Shown here: piece after piece, positions 7,354-44,131 of the stretch
Layout: each line of letters begins with the position of its first letter
Position numbering within the stretch: the first letter of the stretch is position 1
Source of the DNA: Zygnema cylindricum
Taxonomy: Eukaryota > Streptophyta > Zygnematophyceae > Zygnematales > Zygnemataceae
Direction of reading: 5' to 3'
DNA length: 44,380 nt
Assembly (NCBI GenBank): GCA_037447655.1
Contig: JBBHKE010000074.1
Location: 1 to 44,380, forward strand
The notes under the pieces: model-generated
Database searches by the model: none
The model's input: the letters and a program-made list of their open reading frames with translations, nothing else
Told to the model about the DNA's origin: nothing
Made by a program: the position numbers and the translations under genes

Positions 7354-7355
7354 AT

Positions 7356-7367
7356 TGGTATCGGAGC
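7356..7367 (+). other. Primer binding site, initiator tRNA-Met 3' end
   Basis: TGGTATCGGAGC begins two bases after the 5' LTR. It differs by one base from the usual plant copia site TGGTATCAGAGC, which is complementary to the 3' end of initiator tRNA-Met. Confidence 0.85.
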
Positions 7368-7395
7368 TAGTGCTTCGGAGATAGAGAGAGAGCGC

Positions 7396-9212
7396 ATGGG
7401 GAGGAAGAAGAATAGAAATACTCCTTCCCCCATGTCGACTTCGGAGAGAGCAAGAGAGTTCAGTTTTTCGGGTTCTCAATTTGAGGAGACCCGGAATACG
7501 GAGAGACAAATTTGAGGAAATGTTTGATACATTAATGAGATATGTAGATTCACGATTTCAAACTCAATCTTGTGAGAAAAGAGAATTTGTTTCATTTCAG
7601 GCTGCCGATCCATTCAGTGGAGGAGCTAATGAGAGTGAGAAAAAAGAGAGAATTAGGAAAGGTAAAGCAAAGATAGAGGAAGATTCATATTTTGAAGAGG
7701 CATTGGATAATGAAAATGATTATAATATGTCGGGGAAATCCGTGGCCTTTAATGGCACCAATTATGCGGTTTGGAAGAAATTTATTTCAAATCAACTTAT
7801 TATTAAGAGGCTTTGGAGGATTGTCAATGGAGAGGAGAAGATGCCAACGGAGAGCAAGGCACGTGCTCAATGGAGGTTGAAGGATATTGCGGCAACGACC
7901 GGTTTGATGAAAAATTGCACTTCTTCCGTGCTTGATCATTTCCTCGCTCCCCCGGCACGGCCCATGAGTGTTGGCAAGCACTTGAGGAGCAATTTGAGAA
8001 AGGCATTGAGAACAAGGGTCATTATGTTTATACGGACTTTATGAATTTTAAAATCAAATCAAATGAAGTGATGGATGATGCCGTGAAGCGCTTCAATATT
8101 ATACTCAAGCAATTAATCAACAATGGCCGAGTTATCTTGGATGCGGATTAGTTAAGCGTTTTTCTTAATGCTTTACCAAAGAGGCTTTCGCATCTTAAAG
8201 CTATTTTACAAGCAAAGTCGGATAACACCTTCGGATTCACCGTCAATTTAATCAAAATGTCGGGGGGAACTCCATCGGCTTCTTCAAGTGGAGGAGGAGG
8301 AGTTCTCAACTCTACTACTCCCGAAACCCCGGATCTTAACTATGCCGGTGGTAGAGGAGGTGGTAAAGGAGGTGGCACGAGAGGTGGTGGTGGCGACCGA
8401 CGCAACAAGAGGGATCAAGGTCGTCCACCGAAAGTCCCTTCGGATCTTTCCAATGTGACATGCTACCGGTGTAACCGGCTTGGACATTTGTCTTCGTCTT
8501 GTCCGGATAAGGATAAGCAATGTCATTTTTGCGGTAAGTGGGGGCATACGATCCCTCAATGTTATGCAAAGAGTGGAGATTTCGGAAGTGGAAGAGGAGG
8601 TAGAGGAGGTGATAGAGGCGCCCGAGGTGGCGGCCGAGGAGGACGCCGCGGTGGTGGTCGTGGTTACGGTAATGCAAATTACTTTGACTATGGTAATGAA
8701 ACCGGTGATGAGTTTCCGGTTTTTAATCTTACCCTTGATTCGGTAAGTAGTGGAGGAAATTTGGAGAAAGAGTGGATCATTGATACGGGGGCATCTCACC
8801 ATGTTTGCACGGATGCCACCTTGTTTGATGACATGAGGGAACTTACGGTTCCAAAGTTTATTACGGTTGCAAGCGGCCATGTCATTTCGGTTGGTACGGT
8901 TGGCACGGTTCGGCTTGATCTCCTTTCATGGGATAATAATGGGAAAGAGAGATCGACAGGGTATCGTCTTCAAAATACTCTTTACATTCCGGACGGTTCG
9001 GTTAATTTGTTAAGCGTTCCACAAATCCAAAAGATTGGTGGAAGCTTACTTGCGAGAGGTGATCAATCTATTGAGATTTGGAATGAGAAGGGGAATGTTA
9101 TTGGAGAAGGAGTTGTAACGGATGCGAATCATAGTCGGCTCTTATGGAGGAGGCCGAAATCTAAAGTTCCCACCAAGGGAATTTCACGTCAAATTTCGGC
9201 GTTGAAAAGGTG
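7396..9212 (+). pseudogene. Copia D gag and protease, frameshifted
   Basis: ATG at 7396 opens gag. The frame stops at 7513, continues in another frame to about 7955 (including FNGTNYAVWKKF, typical of plant copia gag) and returns to the first frame up to 9212, with an in-frame TAG at 8149-8151. Two CCHC zinc knuckles follow: CYRCNRLGHLSSSC near 8461-8502 and CHFCGKWGHTIPQC near 8521-8562. Glycine/arginine-rich segments lie before and after them and may bind RNA. The aspartic protease active site is in WIIDTGASHHVC, around 8773-8808. Downstream IPDGSVNLLSVPQI is typical of copia protease ends. Gag would coat the RNA and protease would cleave the polyprotein, but the breaks make this copy defective. 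Confidence 0.85.
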
Positions 9213-10640
9213 ATCCTTACCTTATGGCATCATCGGATGTGTCACACATCCGAGGTAAGTTTGAAGAAGATGATTCGTCATTCTTCGGTGAGGGGTTTGG
9301 ACCTTGCATCCGGTGAGAAGGTGAACGGATGCGGAGGATGTAGCAAAGGACGTCAAATTCGGAAATCCCATCCGAATAAAGACATCAAGCATCGAGCTCA
9401 AAGTCCTTTGGAGGTTGTTCACCTCGATCTTTGTGGACATATTAAACCCGAGACAATTGGAGGTAACAAGTATACTTTGGTAATTTTTGATGACTTCTCT
9501 CGGAAGTCATGGGTGTATTTATTGAAAAAGAAATCGGATGCATTTGAAAAATTTAAGGAATGGCATGTAATGGCCGAGAGGAAAATTGATAAGAAGCTTA
9601 AGTCCATTCGTTCGGACAATGGAGGGGAGTTTGTTATTTTTGAGGGGTATTGTAAGGAGTGGGGGATAAGGCATCAATTCACGGTGCCTTATTCTTCGAA
9701 GTCAAATAGAGTGGCAGAGAGGAAGAATCGTACATTACAATAAATGGTCTGTGCGATGGTTCATAGCTCCGGACAAGAGATGTTTTTGTGGGGAGATGCG
9801 ATTCTTATGGCGAATTATATTTGTAACCGAAGACTCACTTCGGTTTCCGGAAGTAAAACACCGGAGGAGTTATGGAGTGGGAGAAAGCCCACGGTTCATC
9901 ATTTGAGAATTTGGGGATGTCATGCTACGGTTTATGTAGAATCAATTAAGAGGAAGGGGAAATTTGCACCAAGGTGTTGGCCGGGAATTTTTGTTAGTTA
10001 TAGTGCGAAGGGGAATTTGTATCGTGTGTATGATCCGGCTCGTCATACCGTGGAGGAATCTCGGAATGTTGATTTTCACGAGGATCTCAAATCCGCCATG
10101 AATTCAGTTGGGAAATTTAAGGAATATTTGGATTTTTATGAGGAGAGTGAAATTGAGAGTTTTCCGTACATTGGGGATTTGGAATCCGATGTGGAACCGA
10201 ATGAGAAAACTAAGAAAAAGAATTTGAAGAAATCGGTTGAAATTGAATTTGAAAGAAAGAGTAATGAATCTTTGGATTCCCTAGTGCCTTCGAACATTCG
10301 GAAATCTCAAAGCTCTAAATCGAGTTCTAAATCGAGTGAGAAGGAAATTGAAATTGAATCCGAGGAAGAGAAAGAGGAAAAGGAGGAGGAGCAAGTTATT
10401 AGGAGGAGCTCTCGGATTACAAAGGGGAAGAAACCGGAGAAACTCACTTACGATCGAAAAGGGGAAAATGCATCGAATTCGCATTATTTTGTTTCCAATG
10501 CTAAGGTGACGGAGTTTCTTTTGTAGCAATCACTTACGGAAAATATGACCGGCGACCCTCAATCTTATGTCGAGGATAGGAGGTCGGTTGATTGGGAGAG
10601 TAAGTGGAAACCGTCGTGGGAGAAAGAATTTAAGTCGGTG
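9210..10640 (+). pseudogene. Copia D integrase and linker
   Basis: A zinc-binding HHCC region (LWHHRMCHTS, then CGGCSKGR) is followed by the catalytic core: D in VHLDLCG, D in IRSDNGGEF and E in VAERKNRT. TAA at 9741-9743 interrupts just after RTLQ, where related proteins read straight on. The frame continues with PEELWSGRKPTVHHLRIWG, typical of the copia integrase C-terminus, then an acidic/lysine-rich linker to a stop near 10526. A further in-frame piece ending WEKEFKSVVV is the start of the RT region, where the sequence breaks off. It joins the protease frame by a shift near 9205. Confidence 0.87.
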
Positions 10641-10645
10641 GTTGT

Positions 10646-10876
10646 ATGACGATTTATTCTAACAGCGTGAGTTCGATAGCGTTGGCGAAAAATCCTGTGT
10701 TTCACAAGAGGACGAATCACATCGGGATCCAATGGCATTTTGTAAGAGAGTTGGTTACGGCGAACGAGATTGTATTTTCGTACATTCCAACAAAAGAGGA
10801 GGCGGCTGATTTGTTGACAAAGGCAGCCACACATGATGTGTTTGAGAGGGGGCGACCAAAACTTGGATTATTTTGA
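10646..10876 (+). pseudogene. Copia D RNase H C-terminal fragment
   Basis: The frame reads SVSSIALAKNPVFHKRTNHI, then IGIQWHFVRELV and TKEEAADLLTKA, the conserved end of copia RNase H. The whole RT and the first half of RNase H are missing between about 10640 and 10650, an internal deletion of roughly 2 kb compared with a full pol. Confidence 0.85.
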
Positions 10877-10898
10877 AAAGTTTGGCGATTACGACAAC

Positions 10899-10909
10899 AA
10901 GAGGGGGAT
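10899..10909 (+). other. Polypurine tract of element D
   Basis: AAGAGGGGGAT lies directly before the 3' LTR, the expected plus-strand primer position. Confidence 0.75.
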
Positions 10910-11539
10910 TGCTGGGATATTGTCGTTTTCGCTACATTTCTTGACGTGAACTGTCGCGTCATCATACAAAAAGTACTACGTCGTTTCGCGACGATACTTT
11001 TGATGTCCGCGAAGGAAACATACTATTTCGTTTCGCGTCACTTGTTTGTTTCGTGCGCAGGTGTTTCAATTTGCTTGCAGGTGTGTTCGTGAAGCGACAC
11101 GTGTTTAAGTCAACGTTGGGAGTTTGTCGTTTCGAAGGAAGAAGCGTGTGCACCTTCCTTCGTGGAACTTTCATTGAAGAGTGCACAGTCAGCTAGGGAC
11201 AGACTTCGTCGCTACGCTAAGTTTGGCTTGTCTTATCTTGTTGTCTCTTAGTGCAGAGTAGCGAGTATATATAGGCAGCAGTGTACATGTGCAGAGTATC
11301 GAATTAATTAATTTTATCTTACATAATTGAATCATAGAGGATTTGATATAAGAGTAAGAGATTATTTAAAGAGGATAGAGAAGAGAGAGAAGAGAGATGA
11401 TGTAAAGAGGCTTCGGCCAATAACACTTATAAATCTTTTTGGCTGAATATTCCTCTTGTCTTTTATGAGCTTCCGCTGTGTAAATGATTTATGTTTTTTG
11501 AATCAATTTAAGTGAAACTCTTTTGCTCAAGATCCTACA
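10910..11539 (+). repeat. 3' LTR of element D
   Basis: Nearly full-length match to 6708-7353, ending CCTACA. It is followed by the target duplicate TGATG. Confidence 0.92.
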
Positions 11540-20389: not shown

Positions 20390-21133
20390 TGTAGAAATTG
20401 ATGGTTCTTTTAGTATTTTCTAGGTCTAAAATATAATGTAGAAAAGAAGCCGAGGCAATTTGCCTCTAACTCCTCTCTTCAACTCCCACACTTGTTGCAG
20501 TCACTAAAAGTTGGAGGGGAAGGTAGAGTCATGGCTACCTAGGCTATCCAGAGGTTTACGCGAAATAGATTAGTTCATTTACAGATTGGTAGTTTCTTTA
20601 CTATAGGGAAGATTTCACATCCAGGGTTTGCTCTTGGTACCTGCCGTCCGATATAGCCGCCAGTAGCCGATAGACTTATCCATTAAGTCTAAAACTAGAG
20701 TTACATGCTATAGGGTTTGTTAGTTATTTAAACAGTGCCACGTAGGATAATTCATTTAACAACAATTGTTTACAGGATACATAGATTCAGTTATATAAAA
20801 GTACGGATTACGGTTTGGATAAAAAACGAGTACTGCGCATTTGTTTCTTTAAACGAAACAAATATCGCGCAAGTATTTATCACGCTACGATTGAAATCTG
20901 CATTCAATTGGACAGCCGAGAAGAATGCCGAGATCGCGGAAAAGAATCTCGGCGGTTTTTGGTCATCGCCACATCGGATGATACGTGGCACAACTACATT
21001 CGATCGAGGCATCTCCGAGGATTACGGGACCAAATCTGGATATGACAAGTGTCGACATTTATTCCATGTCGTACAATATTCGTATAGAAAGTACACCGGC
21101 AGCTGTACTTTTGTGTACGGCAGTGTAATATGA
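20390..21133 (+). repeat. Truncated first LTR of element C
   Basis: TGTAGAAATTGATGG onwards matches 21444-22170 for about 740 bp, then jumps directly into RNase H coding sequence at TTGATGTGGGTCAAG. The LTR's 3' third, primer site and almost all coding sequence are deleted. Confidence 0.8.
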
Positions 21134-21430
21134 TTGATGTGGGTCAAGTCTTTGCTTGGTGAGCTAGGTCACCTTAAGAGTGGTGTGCAAATTTTTTTTT
21201 GTGATAATGAGGCAGCGATCGCTATTTCTGCCAATCCTAAATATCATTTTAAAGCCAAACACATGGACATCAGACTCAGCTTTGTTAAAGAGAAAGTAGA
21301 AAACAAAATAATCAGTTTAGAGTACTGACTAGATAGTGAGATGGTAGCAAATATGGTGACCAAACCTGTGCCTTCCCCGAAGCTAATTTTCTGCAGGGAA
21401 AAGTGTGGTCTGAAATTAAAGAGTGACTAG
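21134..21430 (+). pseudogene. Element C RNase H C-terminus and pol end
   Basis: Reads MWVKSLLGELGHLKSGVQ, then CDNEAAIAISANPKYHFKAK and HMDIRLSFVKEKVE, the conserved end of copia RNase H, with an in-frame TGA near 21326 and a final TAG at 21428-21430. A purine tract (AAAAGAAGAAGAT, 21431-21443) follows, directly before the next LTR. Confidence 0.82.
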
Positions 21431-21443
21431 AAAAGAAGAAGAT

Positions 21444-22490
21444 TGTAGAAATTGATGGTTTTAGTATTTTCTAGGTCTAAAATATAATGTAGAAAAGAAG
21501 CTAAGGCAATCTGCCTCTAACTCCTCTCTTCAACTCCCACACTTGTTGTAGTCACTAAAAGTTGGAGAGGAAGCTAGAGCCATGGCTACCTAGGCTATCC
21601 TGAGGTTTACGGGAAATATATATTTGGGGTTTATTAAGTAAAAATATATGCGGCGGCCACAGGTTTTGAACCTGGTACCTGCCGGACGGCAAGCTGCCGG
21701 TAGCCGGTGACCTTAGCCGTTAAGTCTTTAACTAGTGTTACATACTATATGGTTTGATATTTAATTAAACATTGTCAAGTAGGATAATTTATTTAACTGT
21801 AACTGTTTACGAGAGACATACATCCATTAATGTAAAAGTACGGATTACGGTACGGATAAGAAACCAACACCGCGCATTTATTTCTTTAATGAAACGAATA
21901 CCGCGCATGTATTTATTACGGCTACGATTAAATGTGAATTTAATCGGACGGCCGGAATTAACGTCGAGATCGCGGAAGAGGATTTCGGGAGTTTGTGATC
22001 ATCGCCACATCGGATGACACGTGGCGGAATGACATTGGATCGCGGCATCTCCGAGGATTACGAGAGCGAATCCGGACATACCACGTGTCGACATTTAGGC
22101 CATGTCGTACAGTGTCCGTACAGAAAGTACACCGGCAGCTGTACTTTTGTGTACGGAACTGTAATCTGATTGGCTCCGTACATCAGTAGATAGAGTTTGT
22201 GAGAGAGATAGGACTTAGAAAAATTAGGAGATAGGACCCTCTCTCCCAGAGAGCTTCTGTACAAAAGGTCAACTTTGACCCTCCATAACTTACTGCTCAG
22301 GGGAGCAAATTCAGAGATTTTTTTTGCTATCGACTCAGGGGAGTCTTGCCTTCACAGGGGTGAAGTTGGTTAGAGTTATTGTCTGCCACGGTGGCAGTTG
22401 TTTTTGCTGAAACACAAAGGGGTCAGGGTTATCCTAGAGGCTTCTTGGAAGCTGTCCACTCTGAGGACTTATGGAGGTCTCAGAGTTTCA
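21444..22490 (+). repeat. Second LTR of element C (1047 bp)
   Basis: Starts TGTAGAAATTGATGG after a purine tract and ends GAGTTTCA before a primer site. It is therefore a 3' LTR for the RNase H fragment on its left and a 5' LTR for the gag on its right. GGACTTAGAAAAATTAGG and the family's GACTCAGGGGAGTC block are present. Confidence 0.85.
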
Positions 22491-22664: not shown

Positions 22665-23216
22665 CAGGAAAGAGCTTGCTAAAATTTTCAATCATTATCA
22701 TGATGTACTGTTTCCCCTTTCGAGATAAAGGAAAGGGTCTAGCAAGATCGACGGACGAGCGATAAAACAATCCTTTGATAGGCAATGGCTGTAGCAACAC
22801 CTGCCGATTAGAGAAAGAGGTGCGTAACCGATCGCATTGGCGCATTTGTGGAGAATGGCCGCCACATCCGCTTGCATTGCGGACCACCAATAGCGTGCCT
22901 GTACAAGGCTCAAAGTGCGCTTGGTCTCGTAATGGCCATGCTCGGTATGTATCTGCTCAATCATGGACAAGCGCTTGGTTGGTCGGGGGACATGTCGATG
23001 ACAGCTGTCCGCCAGCAATCGAACTAAAGATCCGCCGAGCCACAAATACTTTTTGGCTCGTTTCTTTACTGGGTGGTCCTCCTCGGCGGTAGTACCGGGC
23101 CGAAAGGTTTGAGAGGAGAGGAAGAGGATTAATGGCCCGTCGCGCCACGAATCTGTGGTTGGCCGAGGGTGAGGTATAGAAGAGAGACGGTAAGTGATAT
23201 AGGGACCAGCCGACAT
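22665..23216 (-). pseudogene. Gypsy integrase, zinc domain and start of core
   Basis: The HHCC-type region reads IEQIHTEHGHYETKRTLSLV, then ARYWWSAMQADVAAILHKC. After a frameshift near 22880 comes VDLARPFPLSRKGKQYIMIM, the usual start of the gypsy integrase core with its first catalytic Asp. The rest of the core and any C-terminal or chromodomain are cut off at about 22665. Confidence 0.85.
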
Positions 23217-23284
23217 GGCCGTTACCTCGTCCTCATCGAGATCTTGCCGGACACCGTTATCGAAGGTCCACGGTAGTGGGTTCC

Positions 23285-23561
23285 GAGAAATCTAGTCGGC
23301 GTTCAAGCTTAACAAACCGGGCCGATGGATGATCTCAACGTCGTACTCTTGTAAAATTAAAGCCCATCGGGCAAGATTCCCTGAAAGCTTATCGTTGGTC
23401 ATCAACCAATGAAGGGGTTGATGGTTAGTTAGGAGCGTGAATGGCTTGCTGTACAGATAATGTCGAAAATGAACAATACCCCATACGGCGGCGAGACATC
23501 CACCCTCGTAACTACTGTAATTAGATTCAGCTCGGTTATTGCTCCGGCTAGCGTATTCCAC
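23285..23561 (-). pseudogene. Gypsy RNase H
   Basis: Contains NYSSYEGGCLAAVWGIVHFR, then HYLYSKPFTLLTNHQPLHWL and LQEYDVEIIHRPG, the standard Ty3 RNase H sequence. A stop separates it from RT at about 23563, in the same frame. Confidence 0.87.
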
Positions 23562-23564
23562 TAC

Positions 23565-24780
23565 CTATTCCTCTCCATTCAACTCTCTTTGCGTTAAAAT
23601 AGCCGCAATGCCTTGCTTCCCGAAATCGGTTTGTAGGCAAAAGGGGTGCTTCTGGTTAGAAGGTTGGAGAATGGGAGCGCTGGAAATGGCGGTTTTCAGT
23701 TTTTGAAAGGCTTCTACTTGGGCGGGTCCCCAAACAAAAGGCACTTCTTTTTTGAGAAGGTCATTAAGGGGAGAAGCAATCGTACTAAAGTTCAGTGCAA
23801 ATCGATGGTAATAAATGGCTAATCCGAGAAAAGCCCTCAGACTAGCGAAATCTGTAGGGGTCGACAGTTTAGTGATAGCCTCTACCTTAGCTTCCAAGGG
23901 AGTGATGCCCTCAACTGAAATAAAATGGCCGAGATAGGGCACTCCCTCCGCACCGAAAGTACACTTGGTTGGGTGACACTTCAACCCGACTTTCTTTAAC
24001 TCGGTGAGAACCCACTCAATATGGCGGGCGTGCTCCTCAGCCGTGGCGGAAGCGATTATAAAGTCATCGATGTAGCACCGGGCAAATTTACATCCACCCA
24101 GCACCGAATCCATGTCTTTTTGAAACACGGCGGGTGCGTTCTTAAGAGCGAAAGGCATGACTGCCCGTTCCCACCGACCATCACTGCCCCAAAATGCAGT
24201 TTTTTTGCCAATCTCTTTCCTCGATTTCAATCTGGTTAAACCCTTGACGCAAGTCAAGAATGCTAAAAAACTTTGCACCACCTACATGGTCAAATATTTC
24301 CTCCGCTAGAGGAAGAGGGTGACGGTCTTGAACGCTCCGTGCATTGAGTTCTCGGTAGTCCCCACACATTCTTCGCTCAGTAAAATTTCCGTCAAAATCT
24401 TTCTTCCTAGGCATGACTGTTGGGGCAGCAAAGGTGGAATCCGACCGATAGATTAGACCGGCTTCTTCAAATTCTGCGCAACTTTTGTCCACCATCTCCC
24501 ATTCCATTTCAAAGAGACTGTGTTTCGGCTTAAAGATAGGTCGATCGTCTTCAAGGTCGATTGACATTTTGTAAGCAGAATGACGTCCAAGGTCATTCAT
24601 GGAGAAAGCAAACGCATCTATATGACGGGTGATTGTGTCACTTAATAGTGCATGTTCCGCCTTTGTGAGACTGGAACCGAACTTCCACTTGGGCGTCTCG
24701 AGACTCTTGATAGTGAAAGCTTCCATGGCCTGAGCAAATGCAATTTGCTCATCGGCGATGAGTGAGTGGCCTAACTCGTA
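23565..24780 (-). pseudogene. Gypsy reverse transcriptase
   Basis: The N-terminal part, from about 24780, includes MCGDYRELNARSVQDRHPLP and FFSILDLRQGFNQIEI. A frameshift near 24200 is followed by VMPFALKNAPAVFQKDMDSV and the catalytic YIDDFIIAS with both Asp residues (near 24070). Downstream are GLKCHPTKCTFGAEGVPYLG and LRAFLGLAIYYHRF. All main RT blocks are present, so only the frameshift clearly breaks this domain. Confidence 0.92.
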
Positions 24781-24805
24781 TTTTACCGAGTTTGCTGCAA
24801 GCAGT

Positions 24806-26080
24806 TCACCCAGTGGTGCCAGCTACGCGTCGGAAATGCAGCTGTCCAGTGCGGTGCCAGACCAGGAAACAATGAAATTGGGGATTGAACGGCTGCATAG
24901 GCCGGGATTTCCCAAGACATATGACTGGGTTTGAGGAAATCATAGATGGAGATATCCTTAACCGCAGGTGTGAGAGAAGGGAAGAGAAAAAACTGAAATG
25001 GATTACCCTTGATACCATGAGAGGTGCGAGAGGAAACAAGACGTGAAGGAGCCGCCGTATTCCCCCCCTAGCTGGTTCCACGGGGTGATTCTGTGCGTAG
25101 CGACCAGCTGCAAGGCCGAGACCTAAGACAAATGATAAAAATTGAGGATCCATGACCCTACCCAATAAAGTGCAACGCTGTCTATCCGTAAGGTCGGGGG
25201 CCGCAGTAGTGCTTGGAATAAAATGCATGAGATGCTCACGTGCTGTGGCCGTAGGCTCCTCTAACTCTCCAGTGACATTATTCCGAAGCATGCCTGGACC
25301 GTTATGAGAGTATGCATGGGAATTAGGGTAAGACAATAAAGTAGGAAGGACCTTGAGGGGTTGGCCAGGTACATTAATGTTGTAATTCGGAGGTTAGTCA
25401 GATTCGACACATGATTCGACTTGGTGGAAGGGAAGCAAATCGGTCGTAATGTCTATAGTGGGAGGTTGTACCAACAAATTAGCCCACGAATACGACCAAC
25501 ATCGATTAGGTTTGTCGATTTTGGAGCGAACACGATGTGCCAAGGACCCATGCCGAGCGACATCAATAATTAGCGGGGGTCTAACAAGGTGTTCTATGCG
25601 CTTATAGTCAGCCAAAATTGAACGCCGATGATCATTAAAAGCTGCGATGTTCTCTAAAATGTATCCGACAGGCTTGGCCATGGTTTGAAGAAAATGAAGG
25701 ACACTCAAAAGCTCAAAAAACAATTTGGTACAAGGATCCCCCAAACGAAGACCTTTGCCGGCCCGAGACATGCCTTGACACTCCCACCCCCCAAAAACAA
25801 GGTCTATCGGTTCGACATCCCGTAGATGATGATTACTAAGGATGCGGATGTCTTGAGGAAGAGCGGTATGCATTTGTAGAAAGGCTAACTTTGGAAACAA
25901 CTGTGGATACTGTGAATGCAGGAGATTACAGTGGTGCAATTGTGCTTTTCTAGCTAATGCATCATTTTCTACTGCATAGTAGTAACGGACGAGGAGACCA
26001 TTCCGTAAACATGACAATAGTGAAGTTCCGATCCCAGCAAATAGATCTAAAATAACGACCCTGTTTGTATGAGGACTCAG
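24806..26080 (-). pseudogene. C5-cytosine DNA methyltransferase domain inside the gypsy polyprotein
   Basis: From 26080 the frame opens with VVILDLFAGIGTSLLSC, the SAM-binding motif I. Then EPIDLVFGGWECQGMSRAGK at about 25811-25752 is motif IV, with the catalytic Cys (codon 25780-25778) and Gln; the usual Pro-Pro before Cys is Trp-Glu. GYILENIAAFND (near 25650) is motif VI, with the Glu-Asn pair. HGSLAHRVRSKID (near 25535) fits motif VIII. After an in-frame TAA (25396-25394) the same frame continues to EEPTATAREHLMHFIPSTTA (about 25260-25200) and TDRQRCTLLGRVMD, a motif IX/C-terminal block. The domain ends near 25090; the last stretch to 24806 is a frameshifted linker. It is in frame with the upstream protease. 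Expected role: transfer of methyl groups from SAM to DNA cytosines. Two stops before it and one inside make this copy inactive. Confidence 0.9.
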
Positions 26081-26092
26081 CTATACGGGCTT

Positions 26093-27205
26093 CTAACTAA
26101 TAGGCAGGAAACCCGAAAGATCGGTTGCAACTCTAGGTATAGGAGGAATAGTTGTTAATGGAATAGATAATGTGGACTTATAAATATTGTCAAATGTGTG
26201 AGAATTGATAAGAAAACCCGGTTCTGCAAAGAGCTCGGGTAAGGGGGAACCATCCAGTATGATCTCTTCGGCCGAAAGAGAGTGGAAAATTTCCTCCCCA
26301 ACGGTGTTCCCCAAAAATGTTGGAAGAGCCGTAGCCGAGAGAGCCATAGTGGGCAAAGGTCGGCGGGCTAAAATGAGAGGGAGGCAGATTTTGCGCTCCA
26401 GAAAGGGTGTCGGTCGGTAAGAGAATGTTTGGTCGTGCATGTCCACACCACTGCCAATTCGGAATATAACGTCCTCACCCACCAAACACTCATAGTCGTC
26501 ACATTTAGTGACTTATGCTCTGACAGCAATTTCAACGGACTCATTTTCGGTTCCTGTCTCAAACCGAAAGATGAGCGGGTCCTTTGTGATTGCGAGGACC
26601 GGCTCCGTGGTCCCAGCCGAAGTAAGAAGGCGGGTAGTGGTCGCCTAAAGCTTGACTGCTGTCAGAGCAAGCTTAAGCGCAAATCCGGATCCGAGGATCA
26701 CGGGTTTGGCCCTGGTGTCAATGAGGGGAAGAGTGGGGTGAACACCGTTCACTGCGAATGATCCCCGAGAGTTATCAAGGAAAATGATATGGGGATCGAG
26801 ATTACGACGCTCTTCCGTAGTAACCGGTGGAACCGCTGAGAGACTGCGGTTTAACTGCAGAGCCCTCAAAGCGGCTGCTGCTGCAACCTCATCAACGACG
26901 GGAAGGGCTTTCGCTACATCCTCCAACATCGCTGAAAGAATACTTAATCGCTCCTTCACCCGATGAGCCTCATGAATAGTGCCATCCAATATGGTCAGTG
27001 ACTCTACCGCGATCGTAGGAGTGGTTTTCGGTAGGGAAGGCAGAGGCTCTTTTACAAATGAGAGTGGGACACAAGAATTTTGTAATTTTCCCACTCGGTT
27101 ATGGTCCGGTGAGCCTTTTTCAAATGTGGCCACCCGTTGTTGGACGGTGGAATCTCGAAGGGTTCGCCCGGCCAACGACGGCATGTGAATAACGGTCCTA
27201 GCCAT
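26093..27205 (-). pseudogene. Gypsy protease region
   Basis: A long region in one frame begins with a poorly conserved spacer. LPLIDTRAKPVILGSGFALK near 26720-26660 is the aspartic protease active site, in which the usual DTG is DTR, so activity would be lost. Two in-frame stops (near 26643 and 26512) split it. CLVGEDVIFRIGSGVDMHDQ follows, and the frame reaches a stop at 26095-26093, five codons before the methyltransferase frame opens. Confidence 0.75.
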
Positions 27206-27301
27206 CCTAGTAAACTAGGGTTTCATTTCCGCCATAAAAGCTGCAAATTGCTCTTTCATCATGGTCCCCATTGTGGCTTGAAGCTCGACCTTCTCTCTCT
27301 C

Positions 27302-28730
27302 TCAACAAGAGATCTTAGGGGGAGCTTCCTCTTTCTCGGTCTCCTTAGGCGGAGTGACTGGTTTCGCAAAACGGGCTGGAATTCCGCCGTTCTTTATTTG
27401 ATAGGTGAAGTTACGGTTTTTGATGTGGTACCGATGGATATAATGTCCCTTTTGGTGGCAATGAGTGCAATTGGCCGCCTTGTCAAGATACATGCGGGCA
27501 TCGTCCCAGTTTTTCCACATCAAAAATACATTCGGCTTCCGGGACTAGCACGTGGAGTTCCCATGGCTAGCGTCTTCTGGGCCTATTGGGGGACCATGGG
27601 TTTTTAGGTGGAGGAGGAGATAGATTAACCGGTTCTCTGTGAGGAGCTTTGGAACGTTGATGGGCGTCCCACCAAGATGTGTGCATCTCGTACTCTACCG
27701 CGTATTGAGCCGCTTGCTCAAAGGTGAATTTCAGTCCATACATTTGGCTGAGGTGGTTTTGGATGAACCTCTTTGATGGACCTGGAAACTGTCCCACAAA
27801 TTTCTGGACAGCCTCCGCATCAAACATGAGATCCGGTAATGCTTCCCGCAGAGTTTCCATCTGAGCTCGCAAGGCAGGGGCAGTTTCACCTGGCCTACGC
27901 TCGAAGTTCATTAACTCTTTGATCTGATCCGAATTTTGCATCCGGTACTCCTCTTAGAGGATGTCAAACATGACGGAGAGAGGGTCACGTAAAGGAATGG
28001 TTCCCCCCGCTCTAGCTAGGACCGCCGCTCGGGCACCCATTGCATACTGACGAGGAACCTCGGAAATAGATGGATACAACTCATCCCTATTAGCATCTAA
28101 TACCGCTGGTCTTAGTGCCTGATATGGGATATCCACTTGGCCTAAGACTTATGGTAACCCCGCAAAGGGAGCCACGTACTCTGTCATCCCAAGCACATCC
28201 TCTTACTTGCGAGTGTAGAGTGTGAGGGCCGTACCACGGAAGTATCGACCGAGAAGGGAAAAATCGACACGGAGGTCAAACCTATCCTGATATCTAAATG
28301 CTAAATCCCTCATTTCCGTATCGTATAACTTACGGAAATGCGATAACGACATGGTGTCCTTTAATCCGGAAAAGCATAATTGCATCCTTCCCATGGATCC
28401 CTCTGAAGAGGAAGCCATGTCGTAAAGGGTAGGATGGGCCGGTTGTGCCAAAGCTGGGCTGGCAGGGAACCTACGAGTGTGAGGAGTAAGAAAGGTTTCC
28501 TCCGGGAAGTCTTCTTCGGTCCCCTCTAGGTATGACCTAGATAAAACCGAGAACAACGATGACGTAGATGTGAGACCAAACTGCACTGACGGTGATCTGC
28601 GATCCGCAATTGGATCGGATGTGGTCCACGATTCGGGAAAATCCGAAGGATTAACCTGCGGAGGACGATACAGTGTACCACCTCGGGTGGACCCGGATAA
28701 ATAAGGAAGGTTATCCCAATCTGTGGGCAT
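27302..28730 (-). pseudogene. Gypsy gag with zinc knuckle
   Basis: ATG at 28730 (MPTDWDNLPYLSGSTRGG). One frame runs from 28730 to about 27570 with in-frame stops near 28204, 28148 and 27954. It contains FRKLYDTEMRDLAFRYQDRF and QKFVGQFPGPSKRFIQNHLS, a retrotransposon gag-like helical region. A frame change leads to CTHCHQKGHYIHRY near 27470-27430, a CCHC knuckle whose last Cys is Tyr. Proline-rich PVTPPKETEKEEAPPK follows. Confidence 0.75.
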
Positions 28731-28739
28731 AAACAAAAG

Positions 28740-30640
28740 GGAAAACCCTGACTACAATAATGAAATATTTTGCACGACCTAACCGAGATGCAACACGTGT
28801 CAGACCAATCCACTCGTCCAGTCCACACACTTAGTCACTATAAAGACCCGATGGTCATATCTAGCAAGAAGCGGGTTTACCAAAACCTCTACCCTGCAAA
28901 CAGTTGGCAAGGCCAAAGGGCCAGATCTATAAAAACAATAAAATTGCTATCCAGGCACCCTAGGGTGCAGATCTACAACAACACAGTCGGGAAAAGGTCT
29001 ACACGGTGCCACCCACGGCAAGATCTAGCAAGAAATCCCACTCCAGATAGTCACACGAAAATCCAAGGCCACTTAGGGCCAGATAGCATGCAACGAAAGC
29101 AAGAAAATGCAAATGCTCAATAAGAAAGGTTCACGATGGAACCCCTCCACACCGATCCCCTACACGAGTGTCCACACTAAATCGGAACGCTCTTGCACCC
29201 GTAAGGCATCGGCTACTTACAGATTCCTTTAGTGCTCTAGTGAGCACTAAGGGTGAACCGAACTTGTTCGAAGCAAGTCGGGTTTTGTAGAGCTCCCTGG
29301 GATAAAATTCACTCCAAGAAATTCGCTCCGAGCAACGTCTCCAAAATAACCCTCCGCTAGACCCGTCCGTACCGTGAAGATGTACGCCGTGGAATGTTAG
29401 GGGACCAATGGAAGGAAGGGAAGAAAGCGTTCGGTGGAAGAAAAATAAACAATAAGACACACAAATACGATAGATAGGAAAAGTGTGTTAGAATAAAGTA
29501 GGAGGCCGCTCAAACTCTAGATATGCAGCCAAACTTATGACCACAATAATCTAATGCCAGGAGCCAACCCTAATTCCACTTGGAAAACCCTAATTCCAAA
29601 GCCAAACCCTAATTTTAGACGGCCAAGACTCCAAATCTCCAGCCAAAAAATAGAAGGATACCGACCTACGGACTAGAATAAAAAGGAATAAATCCTACAT
29701 CTGCTACAACCCTAATTCTGCAGCCAAAACCCTAATTCTATCTCCAAACCCTAATTCTGCAGATTAACCCTAATTCTGCAGATTAACCCTAAATTTGATA
29801 CAAAATTTAGGTTGAGCACTAAAGCAAAGAAATATAGTGGCAGCAGAATAAGAGACAAAGGTTGAAAGAAAGAAATAGCGGAAAACAAAAATAAAATGTG
29901 TTTTTTTTTTATATATAATAAAATTTATATTTTTAATACATTTTTTTTTTATATATCTTTTGGATAAAAATACTCACCCACAAGGTAGCCACTAGGCTCT
30001 TGGGTCTTCAACGTATTCTTTACAAGAGTTATCTCATAGGAAAGCAACGAAGCAAAATAAATAATTCCAACCAAAAACAAGGAAAACTCCAAATTCGGCC
30101 AAAATTCACCCTTCCATTCCCAACCGAAAATACCAACAACACAAATACAAACACCCAAACCGTTCAGCTGTCCGTGGGAAGGGCAGCCGGATCCGGATGC
30201 TTCTCCAGACGAACTCCAATCCACCACTTCCCAAAAATGACACAAGTTGGAGGGAAACCTTTCGGCCTTGGCTTTGAGCCGCATGGATTAAAAGTGTGGG
30301 CAGAATTACAAGGGAGAATGTACGTAAACTATCTAGCCTCTACATCTAGCTAGCAAAAGAAAAGAAGAAACTTGAGCAATCGGTGAGAGAGAGAGCAAGA
30401 GAAAAGCTCCGCCGCCAAGAGAATTTCTTGTCCAAAAGCAAGAAATTATAAGTCTGAAAATAGACTAAGTATTAGCTACGCTACGCCTACGCAAACCCTA
30501 ACCTAAGTCTAGGCTAGTTCACATGAACGAACTACTTAAGATGTTTGGCCAATAGGCGACCAACATTGTCTGTTGTACGCCTAACAAAATCCACCGTCCG
30601 AGGGTAAAAACCCTCCCTATCTACATGTATGCGTGAACCT
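28740..30640 (-). other. Probable leader and LTR region of the gypsy element
   Basis: 1.9 kb upstream of gag on the minus strand, without a recognised gene. A possible LTR start TGTTAGGCGTACAAC lies at about 30578. Pyrimidine/TTTT-rich stretches near 29900-29950 and several AGATCTA motifs near 28920-29030 are seen. I could not find a matching second copy or a clear primer site, so the borders are open. Confidence 0.35.
29576..29795 (+). promoter_or_regulatory. Cluster of eight telobox motifs
   Basis: AACCCTA occurs eight times in about 220 bp, most followed by ATT, and twice within an 18-19 bp repeat containing TTCTGCAG. Teloboxes (AACCCTA) in plants bind telomere-repeat-binding factors in promoters. 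The spacing is too irregular for a telomere tract. Confidence 0.6.
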
Positions 30641-30699
30641 AAGTGGTTTAACGACTTTAAAGAATAAAAGTACATTGAAGCGCCACCAATGCTCCCGGA

Positions 30700-31090
30700 A
30701 ATCGCGCTTCGTCGCCAAACGATACTTGGCGTCTATACTCCAAAATCGCGTAAGTACGCACGAAACGAAACATATCGCACGAAATACTCTTAAAAATCGC
30801 GACGCGTCGCCCCAAACGATATTTGCGAAAGTACCATCGAGATCGTGTACCTACGAAATGAAACGAAACAAACAGTACGCACGAAATTAGTATGTATTCA
30901 ATTTGAAGCGTACCAAATCGCGTACACGTCACAAAAAAGTGAACCAACATGACATCGCACGTGCGAACGAAACTTGTATATACGTGCCGAAATATCGCGA
31001 GTGCGTGCATGATATCCTGCGCGCGCGACAGATAACTCCTGTGCGTGCACAATATCGTGCATGCGTGTGAAATATCGTGCACGCGTGCTA
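30700..31090. repeat. CG-rich diverged short repeats upstream of element A
   Basis: Two diverged copies of a roughly 95-bp unit (30703-30788 and 30797-30890) share CGTCGCC, AAACGATA, CGAAACGAAAC and TACGCACGAAA. Then 30985-31085 has repeated ATATCGTGCATGCGTG-like units rich in GTGC. No gene seen. It replaces the outer half of the element A 5' LTR. Confidence 0.5.
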
Positions 31091-31108
31091 CCGATACGAT
31101 GCGACATG

Positions 31109-31576
31109 ACACACATGGAGAGATAATATTCGGTCGCGCGAATTGCGGAGAACAAAAGGACAAGTTAAAAGTGGACACACGTCCACTCAATGGCCTTGTT
31201 GTACACATGCCGTACACAAAGTACATCGCCCGTAATACCTTTTTGTACTCTATAGTTGTTTGATTGGTTCGTACATCAGTAGATAAGGGTTGTGAGAGGG
31301 GCTTAGGACTTAGAGAATTTGGTAGGAAGGGACCTCTCTCCCTTAGAGAGTTTTGTATAAATTTGGCATTTTTGCCACTTCATACCTAATCGGCTAGTTG
31401 GCCGTTTTCATTGAGTCTTTTTTCTACGAACTCAGGGAGTCCAAGCTGCACATGGGTGCATTCAGATTGTCAATTTGTCCTCTTAGGCAGCAGTGGTTGT
31501 GGCTGAAAGTGGGTTAGTTAAAAGCTATTTAGAGGCTTCTTCAATTCTGTAGTCCAATGGAGGACACAGAATTGCA
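31109..31576 (+). repeat. 5' LTR of element A, outer half missing
   Basis: Matches the 3' LTR from about 40730 to 41193 (GGAGAGATAA, AAAAGTGGACAC, GGCTTAGGACTTAGAGAATT, TGTATAAA). The first half of the LTR is replaced by unrelated CG-rich repeats. TATAAA at 31356-31361 is a candidate core promoter. Confidence 0.85.
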
Positions 31577-33095: not shown

Positions 33096-34022
33096 TTGAA
33101 GCGATTGGGGCATGCGTATTTTGATAGGTTGAGGGAAATGAAGAATCTTGGTGTAGTAGAAGGCATTCAGTTTGGGGATAATAAAATGATGGATGAATGT
33201 AATGGCTGTGCTCAAGGTAAGGCTCACAGACTTCCCTATCTCAAAGCCGCCACATATAGAGGTGAGAAAGTACTAGATCTTGTCTACACAGATATCTGGG
33301 GACCTGCAAAAGTACCTTCGGTTAGAGGAAAAAGTTTTATGTTGACAATAACCGATGACTGGTGTAGATACTCTAAAGTCTACTTCCTCAAAATAAAGTC
33401 TGAAACATCAACTTATTTCAAAGAATATAAAGTTTGGAGTGAGAAGTTGCATGGAACCCCCATTAAGAGAATAATGAGTGAAAATAGGGGGGAATATACC
33501 TCTAACCAGTTTGACGAATACTTGAGAGATTATGGAGTTCAACACTAGAAAAAGTGTACCATATAACCTTAAACAAAATGGGGTAACTGAGAGGTTGAAC
33601 GTAACACTAGGAGATAGTGCATGCAATATGGTGGCCAACAAGAAAATAGGAAAGAGATTTTGAGCAGAAGCCATAAACTTTGCCAACTACATTAAGAATA
33701 GAGTCCTTACCTCAGCTGTAAAGGGAATGACACCTTATGAGAGATGGGCTGGAAGGAAACCAGATATCTCTCACCTTAAAGTATTCAGAAGCCAAGTTTA
33801 CAGTTTTGACACGGATAGGAAAAACTGGAAACTAGATGCTATGGGAAAACATGGATATTTTGTAGGATATGATGAGGATGTCAAGGGATATACACTCTAT
33901 AGCTTAGCAAAGAGAGATATCATTTTGGTCAAACACCTAGTTGTCATAGATGAAGGGAAGTCAATTGACCCCTTCAAATATACGAAGAAAAAAAAAGCAG
34001 ATTTAAGTCTAAAGGTGAGGAG
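33096..34022 (+). pseudogene. Element A integrase, interrupted by B
   Basis: Zinc region KRLGHAYF with DECNGCAQGKAHRLP, then VLDLVYTDIWG (first Asp). The second catalytic position reads IMSENRGEYTS, Glu instead of the usual Asp. A stop at 33546-33548 and frameshifts follow; NGVTERLN carries the final Glu in another frame. MTPYERWAGRKPDISHLKVF and KHGYFVGYDED are the usual C-terminal blocks. Element B begins at 34023 within the linker to RT. Confidence 0.85.
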
Positions 34023-35203
34023 TGTTGATATTTGAGTATTTTCTAGGTCTTTATTAGGATAGAAAAAAAGCAGAGGCGGTCCGCCTCTGACTCCCTTCTC
34101 CAAGCCCCCACACTTGTTGTAGTCACTGAAGGCTGGAAAGAGAGCTAGAGCCATGGCTGCCTAAGCTCTCCAGAAAGACAGGTGTAGATAAATGGTAGAT
34201 TTACTAAAAAGGGTTTTGACAAACCCAGGAACTGATCCCGGTACCTGCCGTCTCTCAGATCACCCGTAGCCGATACCTTTAGCCCTTAAGTCTAGTTTAA
34301 GTGTTATGTAATATAGGGTTTGATAAATATATATAATAACACATGGAGTAATTCGTTTAACGGGAAATTGATACTTAGTGCATGGATACAGTTTCATTTA
34401 GTACGGAGTAGGTTACGGGGACGGAACGGATACCGCGCATTTGTTTCGATAGCGAAACAAATATCGCGCACCAATTTTCAACAGCTACAATTGAATGCTT
34501 GTTTAGATCTGACAGCCACGAAAGATGCCGATATCGCAGAGTAGGTTTTTGGCAGTTTGCGGTCACCGCCACGTCAAATGACACGTGGCAATACTACATT
34601 GGCTTCCGGCTTATCCGGAGATAATACGAACAAATCTGGATGTGGCATGTGTCGACATTTTGGCCATGTCGTACGATGGTCATACAAAAGGTACACCGCC
34701 ACGTGTACCTTTATGTACTTTAGAGTCTTGTTATAGGTTCGTACCTTAGTACTAGGGGGCTTAGAGAGGGGATTTAGGACTTAAAATATTTCTGGTAGGT
34801 AGCTGCCTCTCCTAGAGAGCACCTTGTATAAATGGCAAACTTTGGCTAGCCATAACTATCAATTCAGTTGACCATTTTTAGTGATTCTTTTTGCTGCGGA
34901 CTCAAGGGAGTCCAGGCTACAAAAAGGTGTAGTCGGTCAGAGTCTTTGCCTGCCTAGGTGGCGACATTTCTAAGGGAAAGTCAAAGTGGGTGAATGTGTC
35001 CAAATCTCATATTCTAACTTTGCATTTTGTGGTTGAACTAAGCACACAGAAAGTGTTATTTCATAAGGGTGAAGCTATATTGAGGTTCTGATTGTCAAGG
35101 GGTCAGTCATTTGGGTTTATATCAAGTGGGAGTCGGCACTATCTAGATTAGCTTCCTTTTCTACCTGCGAATTCTGTGTGGCAATGGAGCCCATAGAATT
35201 TCA
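34023..35203 (+). repeat. 5' LTR of element B
   Basis: Begins TGTTGATATTTGAGTATT and ends CATAGAATTTCA, followed at once by the primer site. TATAAA near 34828 follows the family's GGACTTAA block. Confidence 0.9.
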
Positions 35204-37104: not shown

Positions 37105-37116
37105 AAATAAGGGGAG
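37105..37116 (+). other. Polypurine tract of element B
   Basis: AAATAAGGGGAG directly before the 3' LTR. The same AAATAAGGGGAG precedes the 3' LTR of A at 40189. Confidence 0.75.
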
Positions 37117-38295
37117 TGTTGATATTTGAGAATTTTCTAGGTCTTTATTAGGATTGAAAAAGAGCAGAGGCAGTCCGCCTCTGACTCCCTTCTCCAAGCC
37201 CCCACACTTGTTGTAGTCACTGAAGGCTGGCAAGGGAGCTAGAGCCATGGTTGCCTAAGCTCTCCAGAAAGAGAGTGTAGATAAATGGTAGATTTACTAA
37301 AAAGGGTTTTGACGGACCCACGAAGTGATCCCGGTACCTGCCGTTTGTCAGATCACCCGTAGCTAGTAGCTTTAGCCGTTAAGTCTAGTATTAGTGTTAC
37401 GTAATATAGGGTTTGATAAATATTTATAATATCACATGGAGTAATTCGTTTAACGGGAAAGTGATACTTAGCGCATAGATACAGTTTCATTTAGTACGGA
37501 GTACGTTACGGGGACGGAACGGATACCGCACATTTGTTTCGATAGCGAAACAAATACGGCGCACCAATTTTCAACGGCTACAATTGAATGCCAGTTTAGA
37601 TCTGACGGCCACGATAGATGCCGAGATCGCGGAGTAGGTTGTTGGCGGTTTGCAGTCACCGCCACGTCAAATGACACGTGGCAATACTACATTGGCTTGC
37701 GGCTTATCCGGAGATAATACGAACAAAATCAGGATGTGGCAGGTGTCAACATTTTGGCCATGTCGTACGATGGCCGTACAAAAGGTACACCGCCACCTAT
37801 ACCTTTATGTACTTTGAAGTCTTGTTATTGGTTCATACCTTAGTTCTAGGGGGCTAAGAGAGGGGATTTAGGACTTAGAATATTTCTGGTAGGTAGCTGC
37901 CTCTCACAGAGAGCACCTTGTATAAATGGCAAACTTTGGCCAGCCATAACTATCAATTCAGTTGACCATTTTCAGTGATTCTTTTTGCTGCAGACTCAAA
38001 GGAGTCCAGGCTACACATGAGAGTAGTCAGTCAGAGTGTTTGCCTTCCTGGGTGGCTGCATTTCTAAGAAAAAGTCAAAGTGGGTGAATATGTCCAAATC
38101 TCATATTCAAACTTGCATTATGTGGTTGAACTGAGCACACATAAAATGTTATTTCACAAGGGTGAAGCTGTATTGGGGTTTTGATTGTCAAGGGGTCAGT
38201 CATTTGGGTTTATATCAAGTTGGAGTTGGCACTATCTAGATTAGCTTCCTTTAGACTTGCGAATTCTATGTGGCAATGGAGCCCATAGAATTTCA
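37117..38295 (+). repeat. 3' LTR of element B
   Basis: TGTTGATATTTGAGAATT to CATAGAATTTCA, close to the 5' LTR throughout. After it the element A reading frame for the pol linker resumes. Confidence 0.9.
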
Positions 38296-38324: not shown

Positions 38325-39400
38325 ATGAGTGAAACAGGGATTGTGGATTCAAGGGAGATCCAAGGTATAGGAGATCCACTGGAAACCTCACATATTCCTA
38401 TAAACTTCGAGGAGACAGAAGAGGAGGAACTGGAACCAGCTTTGAAAGATTGGGGAGTTGATGAGACGATAAGGAGAAATCCAAGACTTCCTTTTATCTT
38501 AGCTTTTGAGTTTGAGGGAGGGAGAAAGAGTAGCAAAAGGATACAAGAAAAATAGGTTGCTCACGAAGTAACTAAGCTATTGCACCTAGATGAGCCTCAA
38601 TCATACTTGGAGGGAGTGAACAGTTTGGAGAAAGACAAATTGATAAGAGCCATAAATGATGAGATGGCCTCCATCATGTAAGCAAATACTTGGAAACTAG
38701 CGACTATCCTCTGGACAGAAAACCGATTGTTTGTAAAAGGGTGTTTAAAACTGAACCTAGATAATACCATTGAGAGATATAAGGCTCAATTGATAGCAAA
38801 GCGGTACACTCAAAAGGAGGGGATTGACTATGAGGAGACTTTTGCTCCAATTGTTTGGTTCCCATCAGTAAGGATTCTCCTCAGTCTGGCAGCAGCTAAA
38901 GACATGGAAATACACCAACTAGATATTAAGATTGCCTTTCTTACTGGTGAGTTAGAGGATAAAATTTTCATGATGCAACACAAGTGGTTCGTGGAGGAAC
39001 GAGAAGAGAGCAAAGTGTGCATGCTCATAAAGTCCTTATATGGACTGAAGCAGGCTCCTCGACAGTGGAATAAAAAACGAGATGAATTTCTCACCGGTTT
39101 GGGATATACCTGGATAATATTTAACCATTCTATCTATATGTTTGGAGATGAGAATGGTGTCATTTTTATTGCAATTTATGTGGATGATCTGCTTTTGTTA
39201 AGTAAATCCTTGGAAAAGATCAATAAGTTAAAGAAAGATCTTAAAACGGATTTGATATGAAGGATTTAGGTGATACACGATACATTTTGGGGATCCAAAT
39301 GGAGAGAGATAGGGGGAAAGGGATTATAAGACTTACTCAAAAAGAAGCAATAGGTAATATGGTTGAGAAATATAAGATATAAAAAGCAAACAATTGTGCC
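38325..39400 (+). pseudogene. Element A linker and reverse transcriptase
   Basis: One frame from 38325 to 39260 holds the variable linker, two stops (38553-38555 and 38679-38681), then RT: YKAQLIAKRYTQKEGIDYEE, FAPIVWFPSVRILLSLAA, MEIHQLDIKIAFLTGEL, LYGLKQAPRQWN and the catalytic YVDDLLLLS near 39178. After a frameshift near 39257 comes MKDLGDTRYILGIQMERDRG. These are all the Ty1/copia RT blocks. The catalytic Asp pair is intact; FLTGEL differs slightly from the usual FLNGEL. Confidence 0.9.
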
Positions 39401-42652: not shown

Positions 42653-44131
42653 ATGACACCAAAACAAGAAAAAAGATACGTGTCATTGATGATTCAAAAT
42701 GTTACATTTGCATTGATGACGATCTTACAAATGATTTTGAGAACCCTATTGCCTCCTATATTTTACAAGCATCACGACCACCAATTGGTTTAAACTGCTA
42801 TTGCTAAGGTTATGCCTCGAATTTCAGCAAACTGCATCCATCAAAATACCAATTTCCAAGGTGATTTGAATGAAGACTACTACATTAGACCAAGAAGTAT
42901 ACATTGGGTGGACAAAGAGTTACCACGCTACAATGACAAACAATTTCGACAATTATTTCGACTAAAAAAAGACACGGTCCAATTTTTGGTAAATGAATTA
43001 AAAGATAAGTTAGAAACCAAACCCCCTCCAAGACTTCGTAATATTTCCAATAAGAAATTAAGCGTGGAAAAACAAATTTTAATAGCATTGATGCGTTTGG
43101 GACATCAAGGCGGGATCACACGTACTTTTGTTGAATTTGGTGTTGGACACTTAACTGCGGCAAGGATAACTCTTAATGTCACGGAGGCCATTGTCAAAAG
43201 GCTTGGGCATTGGGTAAGGTGGCCCACATCAGATGAAATTGAGGACACCAAAATATTTTTCATGGAAGAAAATGGGTTGCCGAATTGTGTAGGGGCTATA
43301 GATTGTACACATATAGAGATTACACTTGGAGATGAAATGTCACCAATCAATTATTATGATGCCAAACAGAATTATTCTACTGTAGTTCAAGCGGTCGTGG
43401 ACCGTATAATGAGATTTATCGACCTTAATTTAGGCTCTCCTGGGTCAATGCACCACTGTAGAATTTTTAGGACATACGAGTTGGGGGAAGACTTTCAAAG
43501 ACGTTTAAAAATGTGAAACCTTACCTTGTAGGAGATGACGGTTATGCCCTCCATCCGAACTTAATAGTTCCGTACCCTGGTTCGAAACTCAATGCGTCTC
43601 AAGCAAAATTCAACTTACAACATTCGTTGTTGAGGATGGTGGTAGAAAGAGCGTTCATAAAACTCAAGGCGCAATGGAGGTTAATCCACAAAAAAATACA
43701 ATCCAAAACTTGAATCTATGATCACTTTTATCGTTGTTGCATTTCTTCTTCACAACATCTCTATTGCGATGAATGAAACCGAAATTGATTGGGAGAAAGA
43801 ATTTAAAGTGGAGCTAAGAAAAAATGCATGCGGCATTGGAGAAAGATCCACACACATGAACGAAGCCGAAAGACGACAAGTACAAAAAGGTAGGGATGTC
43901 GAAAGACGGTTGGGTGGTTCACAAATGAACAAAATTCGAGGGTTTCAAACACGAGAAATTTTATGTGATTTTATGATGAGGGGAAACGCGAGTGACGAGG
44001 ACGATAGTGGTGTTTATGTTTCACATGCGGAAGGAGTGGACAACATAGATATGCTTGTTGAACAATATCACGATGATGAAAGTGACGATGACACTATAGA
44101 TGAGATAGATGAGATGGACATCGATGAATGA
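42653..44131 (+). pseudogene. PIF/Harbinger-type transposase, frameshifted
   Basis: ATG at 42653 opens a frame with an early TAA (42791-42793) that continues through 42812 to 43516: FRLKKDTVQFLVNELKDKL, TRTFVEFGVG and NCVGAIDCTHIEITLGDEMS, which holds the first catalytic Asp. A frameshift at about 43513 leads to KPYLVGDDGYALHPNLIVPY with the second Asp, and LLRMVVERAFIKLKAQWRLI with the catalytic Glu. A second frameshift near 43700 returns to the first frame (MITFIVVAFLLHNISIAM) and an acidic tail. This is the DDE arrangement of HARBI1/ALP1-like proteins; all three catalytic residues survive. I found no companion Myb-like gene. Confidence 0.88.

Follow-up and report, generated by a model that had tools for sequence, protein, structure and literature searches.

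A Ty3/gypsy retrotransposon carrying a DNMT3-type C5-DNA methyltransferase (DNMT) between its protease and its reverse transcriptase (RT) has left an inactivated copy in the window (that is, the whole stretch of 44,380 nucleotides of Zygnema cylindricum DNA analysed here), and full copies elsewhere in the genome show terminal repeats split in the order A1-internal-B1-GC-A2-B2. The reading of this anatomy that we favour, at a probability of roughly 0.55, is that the two ends of the cDNA are joined and that a DDE integrase then cuts a palindrome inside the long terminal repeat (LTR), with the DNMT and a PHD finger contributing to the cycle. Such a route would depart from the accepted way in which elements of this type move. 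The broader proposition is that Ty3/gypsy elements with DNMT3 and PHD domains form a group spread widely through the green lineage and use end-joined cDNA for integration by way of an inherited internal palindrome, the integrated form being a permuted cDNA; it seems to us evenly poised.

An inactivated copy in the window

The decayed element occupies window positions 22676-31111 on the minus strand, and its recognizable parts are as follows (P0001 is the protein used for the tblastn projections, and C449 a further copy in the genome):

29971..31111, minus strand: A1 terminal repeat, the left end of the element, starting with TGTCATG at 31111 (blastn)
27630..28730, minus strand: decayed gag region (tblastn to P0001 residues 41-417, 56% identity)
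26590..26760, minus strand: approximate aspartic protease core, inferred by projecting P0001 residues 708-760 (Asp_protease_2, E = 0.012, under the Pfam cut-off) through the tblastn match 27502-24986
25061..26077, minus strand: DNMT3-type C5-methyltransferase domain, inactivated (PF00145, E = 8.5e-9; 86% identity to the open C449 domain)
23288..24546, minus strand: RT and RNase H, frameshifted (PF00078, E = 4e-16; PF17919, E = 1.6e-11; limits projected from tblastn to P0001)
22672..23015, minus strand: truncated integrase (PF17921, E = 5.9e-11; tblastn to P0001 up to residue 2065)
22676..29944, minus strand: whole internal region (92.2% identity over 7292 nt to C449)

Among the copies compared, C449 is the nearest relative of the window copy (92.2% over 7.3 kb). 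By blastn, the window A1 is 82.8% identical to the A1 of C449 over 1116 nt (80% over the first 71 nt) and 89.5% identical to its A2 over 819 nt. The window element stops inside the integrase at 22676; B1, A2, B2 and the PHD finger are absent from it, and the downstream remainder of C449 is unmatched.

A preliminary description of this DNA had proposed, from the letters and their translations, that a C5-methyltransferase was captured by a gypsy element between protease and RT, and the profile match, further genome copies and open frames all bear this out. The Pfam DNA_methylase profile matches the window at 25394-26080 on the minus strand (E = 8.5e-9; score 35.7 bits, cut-off 22), and RVT_1, RT_RNaseH_2 and Integrase_H2C2 match in adjoining minus-strand open reading frames (ORFs). 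The DNMT and protease regions share a frame, as had been suggested, because one single-frame tblastn match (27502-24986) runs from behind the zinc knuckle via the protease region through the DNMT. Motif I (DLFAGIG), a Cys-Gln motif IV (GGWECQGMS) and the ENI of motif VI are all present as described. The motif IX-like block is likewise there, except that the window reads AREHLMHF where EREHLMHF had been given, while motif VIII is disrupted: where WTN is expected, the window contains a stretch unlike C449. Over 339 residues the domain retains 86% identity to the open frame of C449, but it is interrupted by an in-frame stop that follows ...CVESD, and the frame shifts near 25064, behind the domain; tblastn to P0001 places frame changes in the RT and integrase as well. 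The window copy is thus an inactive relic.

Several other repeats and transposon fragments lie in the window. Just past the truncated end of the DNMT element are direct repeats at 20408-21136 and 21459-22172 (80-94% identity, about 1.04 kb apart), and near its left part, at 29565-29794, are AACCCTAATT repeats, which we take to be similar to plant-type telomere repeats. A probable Ty1/copia-like element spans 6767-11539 on the plus strand, bounded by direct repeats at 6767-7353 and 10941-11539 (96% identity) that enclose ORFs of zinc-knuckle and integrase-like appearance. Direct repeats of about 1.1 kb at 34019-35159 and 37113-38252 (92-95% identity in pieces, 3.09 kb apart) adjoin a copia-like RT ORF at 38682-39260, with a third partial match at 41013. 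Finally, a fragment of a DDE_Tnp_4 transposase is found at 42794-43516 on the plus strand (Pfam, E = 4.2e-7).

Split terminal repeats and a proposed route of integration

Across the 353-Mb genome there are at least 123 DNA_methylase matches, all over the cut-off (123 rows scored from 782 first candidates, the window copy lying outside them; a single copy may be represented by several rows). The number of these matches, together with the profile score in the window, rules out a chance match or an isolated insertion, and other gypsy copies have the domain at the same site, contrary to the one-off insertion against which the preliminary description had guarded. Sixteen places, picked for open frames or score, were examined more closely. 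They fall into lineage A, which includes the window copy, and a second lineage B, and both contain long open copies. In lineage A, C1344 has a single open frame of 2395 residues with, in Pfam order, zinc knuckle, protease, DNMT, RT, RNase H, integrase and PHD finger; its A1 and A2 are identical over 931 bp, which marks it as young. In lineage B, C544 has 1525 residues with DNMT, RT, RNase H, integrase and PHD finger, and a protease in an upstream ORF. The DNMT, RT, integrase and lineage A PHD finger all score over their Pfam cut-offs; the zinc knuckle, the proteases of C1344 and C544 (E = 0.012 and 0.00017) and the PHD finger of lineage B (21.5 bits, cut-off 24) fall under theirs. Pfam places the DNMT inside the pol ORF in both P0001 and P0002.

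The repeat order A1-internal-B1-GC-A2-B2 was observed in C1344, C829, C1915 and C449, with A1/A2 identities of 100%, 99.6%, 99.5% and 80%, respectively. The element termini are TGTCATG...CACGACA, and the 4-bp target duplications TTGG, AAGG and CCCT were read at the flanks of C1344, C829 and C1915; the flanks of C449 (TCAT/GCAT) match imperfectly. C228 and C1974, whose interiors are known from the DNMT match only, have the same two ends and junction, with duplications GTGG and AGGT, which brings perfect 4-bp duplications to five of the six full copies with both ends read. C1984 shows the junction, A2 and B2 in a stretch that stops short of the left end, and in lineage B the full split-repeat order recurs in C1042 with decayed ends. 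A canonical LTR-internal-LTR structure, in which C1344 would have plain LTRs of 920-931 bp, is ruled out by this order and its B2. In the four copies examined (C1344, C829, C1915 and C449), no TGG start directly follows A1, and from the element sequences alone we could recognize neither a primer binding site nor a tRNA used for priming.

Between B1 and A2 the right end of the element, two bases and the left end are fused internally as ACGACA-GC-TGTCATG, forming the palindrome GACAGCTGTC. The junction 17-mer CGACAGCTGTCATGCCG occurs at 132 places in the genome and its reversed control at none. In C1344, C829, C1915 and C449, a purine tract ending in a G run directly abuts B1. Eight further junction sites were sampled from the first part of the 132-place list, and at all eight the 270 bases upstream contain a purine run at least 11 long, although this is a lenient criterion that random sequence will occasionally satisfy. 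B2 lies within 2 kb behind A2 at five of the eight, in every case starting at most 4 bases from the tract end, and was not found within 2 kb at the other three; the right end reads GCACGACA in four of the five. Whereas the fused junction is constant, the A2|B2 joint varies by a few bases among close relatives (C1344, C1974 and C1984; C449 versus C228; C829 versus C1915). C1407, which is 99.9% identical to C1344 over 7.4 kb, has about 226 bases of A missing at the joint, and provides weaker evidence on the joint because the 5' part is absent.

To account for this anatomy, we propose the following cycle. The RNA would run from A1 to A2, and plus-strand synthesis would be primed at the purine tract adjoining B1, yielding a linear cDNA flanked by B-GC-A. 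Because the purine tract marks the plus-strand start, the true LTR would be B-GC-A, with B2 starting at the cDNA end. The two cDNA ends would then be joined imprecisely, in a two-LTR circle or a tail-to-head concatemer (equally compatible with the genome sequence), creating an A2|B2 joint that would be made anew in each round while B1-GC-A2 is copied from the RNA. The DDE integrase would skip the cDNA ends and cut the inherited palindrome GACA^GC^TGTC inside the LTR, after CA on each strand, leaving recessed CA-OH ends and a two-base overhang, and the observed form would result once the permuted molecule is inserted and 4 bp of the target are duplicated. Judging from domain identity alone, the DNMT may act on new copies or on target chromatin, and the PHD finger may guide the integrase.

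A route of integration through the circle junction was once proposed for retroviruses and then set aside; if the broader proposition is true, these elements would be an example of it in nature. The integrases of foamy virus and HIV-1 have each been reported to cut palindromic LTR-LTR junctions (PMC1180852; PMC1905944), and for foamy virus the loss of two bases between the CA ends is described, as here (PMC1180852). The viral junctions arise by joining of LTR ends, whereas we read the Zygnema junction as inherited inside the LTR, the cDNA ends being joined elsewhere.

Two other explanations of the repeat order deserve consideration. The elements could replicate in the manner of DIRS/PAT elements, with the B1-A2 junction templating the missing ends so that a circle forms without end joining, and with an integrase in place of the tyrosine recombinase. 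The repeat order is indeed that of the split direct repeats which PMC8969392 describes for DIRS, and the Fig. 4 legend of PMC5890265 likens the repeats of a Klebsormidium nitens element to those of DIRS. We nevertheless regard this as rather unlikely: B1 directly follows the purine tract, and the start of B2 coincides with the tract end or lies near it, as in LTR-type plus-strand priming, and templating would not yield an A2|B2 joint that varies between close relatives. DIRS/PAT elements have a tyrosine recombinase, which was not found in the five frames scanned here, whereas our elements have the rve and Integrase_H2C2 domains of a DDE integrase; DIRS elements are also described as free of target duplications (PMC8969392), in contrast to the full copies here. 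Still less probable, in our judgement, is an ordinary LTR element in which B was moved by one old rearrangement and has been copied passively ever since, an ordinary linear cDNA being inserted. The ordinary gypsy proteins with their DDE integrase, the TG...CA ends and the short duplications would all suit such an element, but a linear cDNA copied from RNA would not be expected to terminate in B2 and carry a variable A2|B2 joint, nor should B2 begin at the tract end, or close to it, in separate copies.

The joined-end model leaves one class of copies unexplained. Copies of the form A1-internal-B1 with correct termini occur in lineage B (C544 and C1374, loci L011 and L012) and in lineage A (C783 and C2577, loci L018 and L017), and a matching target duplication is absent in all four. 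Recombination between copies, B1 with B2, could account for them without transposition, and we give this account an even chance: the fused junction stands at many places in the genome and the matched duplications are missing in all four; against it, recombination within a copy would retain a duplication, which none of the four has.

The methyltransferase domain

By sequence profile and by the fold of a predicted model, the DNMT is nearest to DNMT3. For single sequences of both lineages, DNMT3A is the first PDB match, and a profile search of the PDB built from 13 homologues gave DNMT3A (3.6e-21), DNMT3B (1e-17), 4onj (1.5e-8) and HhaI (1.1e-7). The entry 4onj, named simply 'DNA methyltransferase', is presumably tobacco DRM. 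No chain named CMT or DNMT1 appeared in either the single-sequence or the profile searches of the PDB, and we rejected those types on that ground. For the Closterium homologue P0010, the structure predicted by AlphaFold reaches a mean pLDDT of just 59.6; within its DNMT part (residues 261-590), ten-residue blocks range from 60 to 95, with one at 54. Foldseek with this model gave 196 rows with E values no higher than 0.001; the 50 of these that were listed are without exception structures of DNMT3, with identities of 16-20%.

Motif IV retains the catalytic Cys, with the preceding proline replaced by Glu in lineage A, so the activity of the lineage A enzyme is uncertain. Among the 91 motifs matched in 99 proteins, the motif reads ECQ in 65, PCQ in 24 and PCE in 2, and the PCN of the DNMT3A chain is absent.

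Comparisons between copies point to purifying selection on the domain: dN/dS is 0.11-0.22 for nine lineage A pairs and 0.12-0.39 for nine lineage B pairs. These 18 usable pairs (dS 0.09-0.97, window copy excluded) share copies and are thus not independent, and stops occur in two lineage A copies; the remaining lineage A pairs were saturated, had dS above 2 or hardly differed. The window copy gives a dN/dS of 0.54 against C449.

In the interiors of lineage A copies the observed/expected ratio of CpG lies at 0.85-0.94, compared with 0.65-0.66 for lineage B; the former values give no sign of lasting CpG methylation in lineage A, and CpG composition does not support self-methylation there. The DNMT could be a mere passenger that does nothing for the element, as might be argued from this lack of CpG depletion, from the change of Pro to Glu in motif IV of most members, and from the K. 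nitens domain, which produced no methylation in yeast, a result that its authors call inconclusive (PMC5890265). We think this improbable, given the low dN/dS between copies, the retention of open frames and the presence of the DNMT at two positions in many related elements.

Relatives and known systems

Protein matches with names come from K. nitens, Closterium sp. NIES-54, Marchantia polymorpha and Haematococcus lacustris, alongside many that are unnamed. Of 64 proteins with both domains, 15 have the DNMT before the RT (lineages A and B, P0091 of K. nitens and P0062 of Closterium) and 49 have it after the RT, including P0030 of Haematococcus; an integrase match lies behind the DNMT in 47 of those 49 and in two there is none. 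A PHD-like pattern follows the RT in 44 of the 64. The placement of Marchantia is less sure because its DNMT-bearing proteins match neither the RT nor the motif IV pattern. P0015, P0017 and P0018 are DNMT relatives without an RT or integrase match, and motif IV is SPCQ in P0015 and P0018.

The position of the DNMT changes only once among the labelled rows of a DNMT tree (91 rows, with a DNMT3A piece added and 9 of the 99 proteins dropped as short; long-branch warnings were raised), and once in a tree of RT plus integrase (54 rows of the 64, SH-aLRT 100). Both trees were quick ones, built without bootstrap and without DNMT-free gypsy elements. This suggests a single capture of the DNMT. The history it points to would be older and shared, because the relatives span streptophytes and a chlorophyte and each tree holds one change of position. 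In PMC5890265, the retrotransposon DNMTs of dinoflagellates and of the K. nitens lineage are attributed to separate captures, and a 2025 paper (PMC12344493) cites DNMT3 in retrotransposons of streptophytes and dinoflagellates.

A gypsy element bearing a DNMT is of a kind already known, namely KnitGypsy-Dnmt3 of K. nitens (PMC5890265), and the statement in the preliminary description that such elements had been reported from charophyte algae holds, since the window element groups with this charophyte DNMT3-gypsy kind (K. nitens P0091 also has its DNMT before the RT). As described in that paper, KnitGypsy-Dnmt3 shares with our elements the gypsy domains, a DNMT3-type domain in the pol ORF, selection on the DNMT and DIRS-like repeats (Fig. 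4 legend). The elements described here differ in coming from another genome and forming two further lineages, in the motif IV Glu of lineage A, and in their terminal PHD finger, a term absent from the main text of PMC5890265 (its figures and supplements aside). Our account of the termini, target duplications and joints of such elements goes beyond the consulted part of that paper. The Haematococcus and unnamed environmental proteins resemble ours in the group to which their DNMT belongs, in their gypsy RT and integrase and, in many cases, in a PHD finger, but P0030 and the 48 others differ from lineages A and B in having the DNMT after the RT. SymbioDIRS-Dnmt3 and SymbioLINE-Dnmt of Symbiodinium are alike in being retrotransposons with a DNMT, but are a DIRS element with a tyrosine recombinase and a LINE, respectively, and represent a separate capture according to PMC5890265.

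The chlorophyte Chlamydomonas has its own unusual gypsy element, REM1. In the available text of the Chlamydomonas genomes paper, the terms methyltransferase and PHD do not occur. Among open-licence PMC papers, in the parts consulted and with subscription papers mostly outside this scope, we found no account of a gypsy element integrating by the route proposed here. If our reading of the integration cycle is true, the definition of the cDNA ends would be separate from what the integrase recognizes, and the question of circular integration precursors could be tested from genome sequence.
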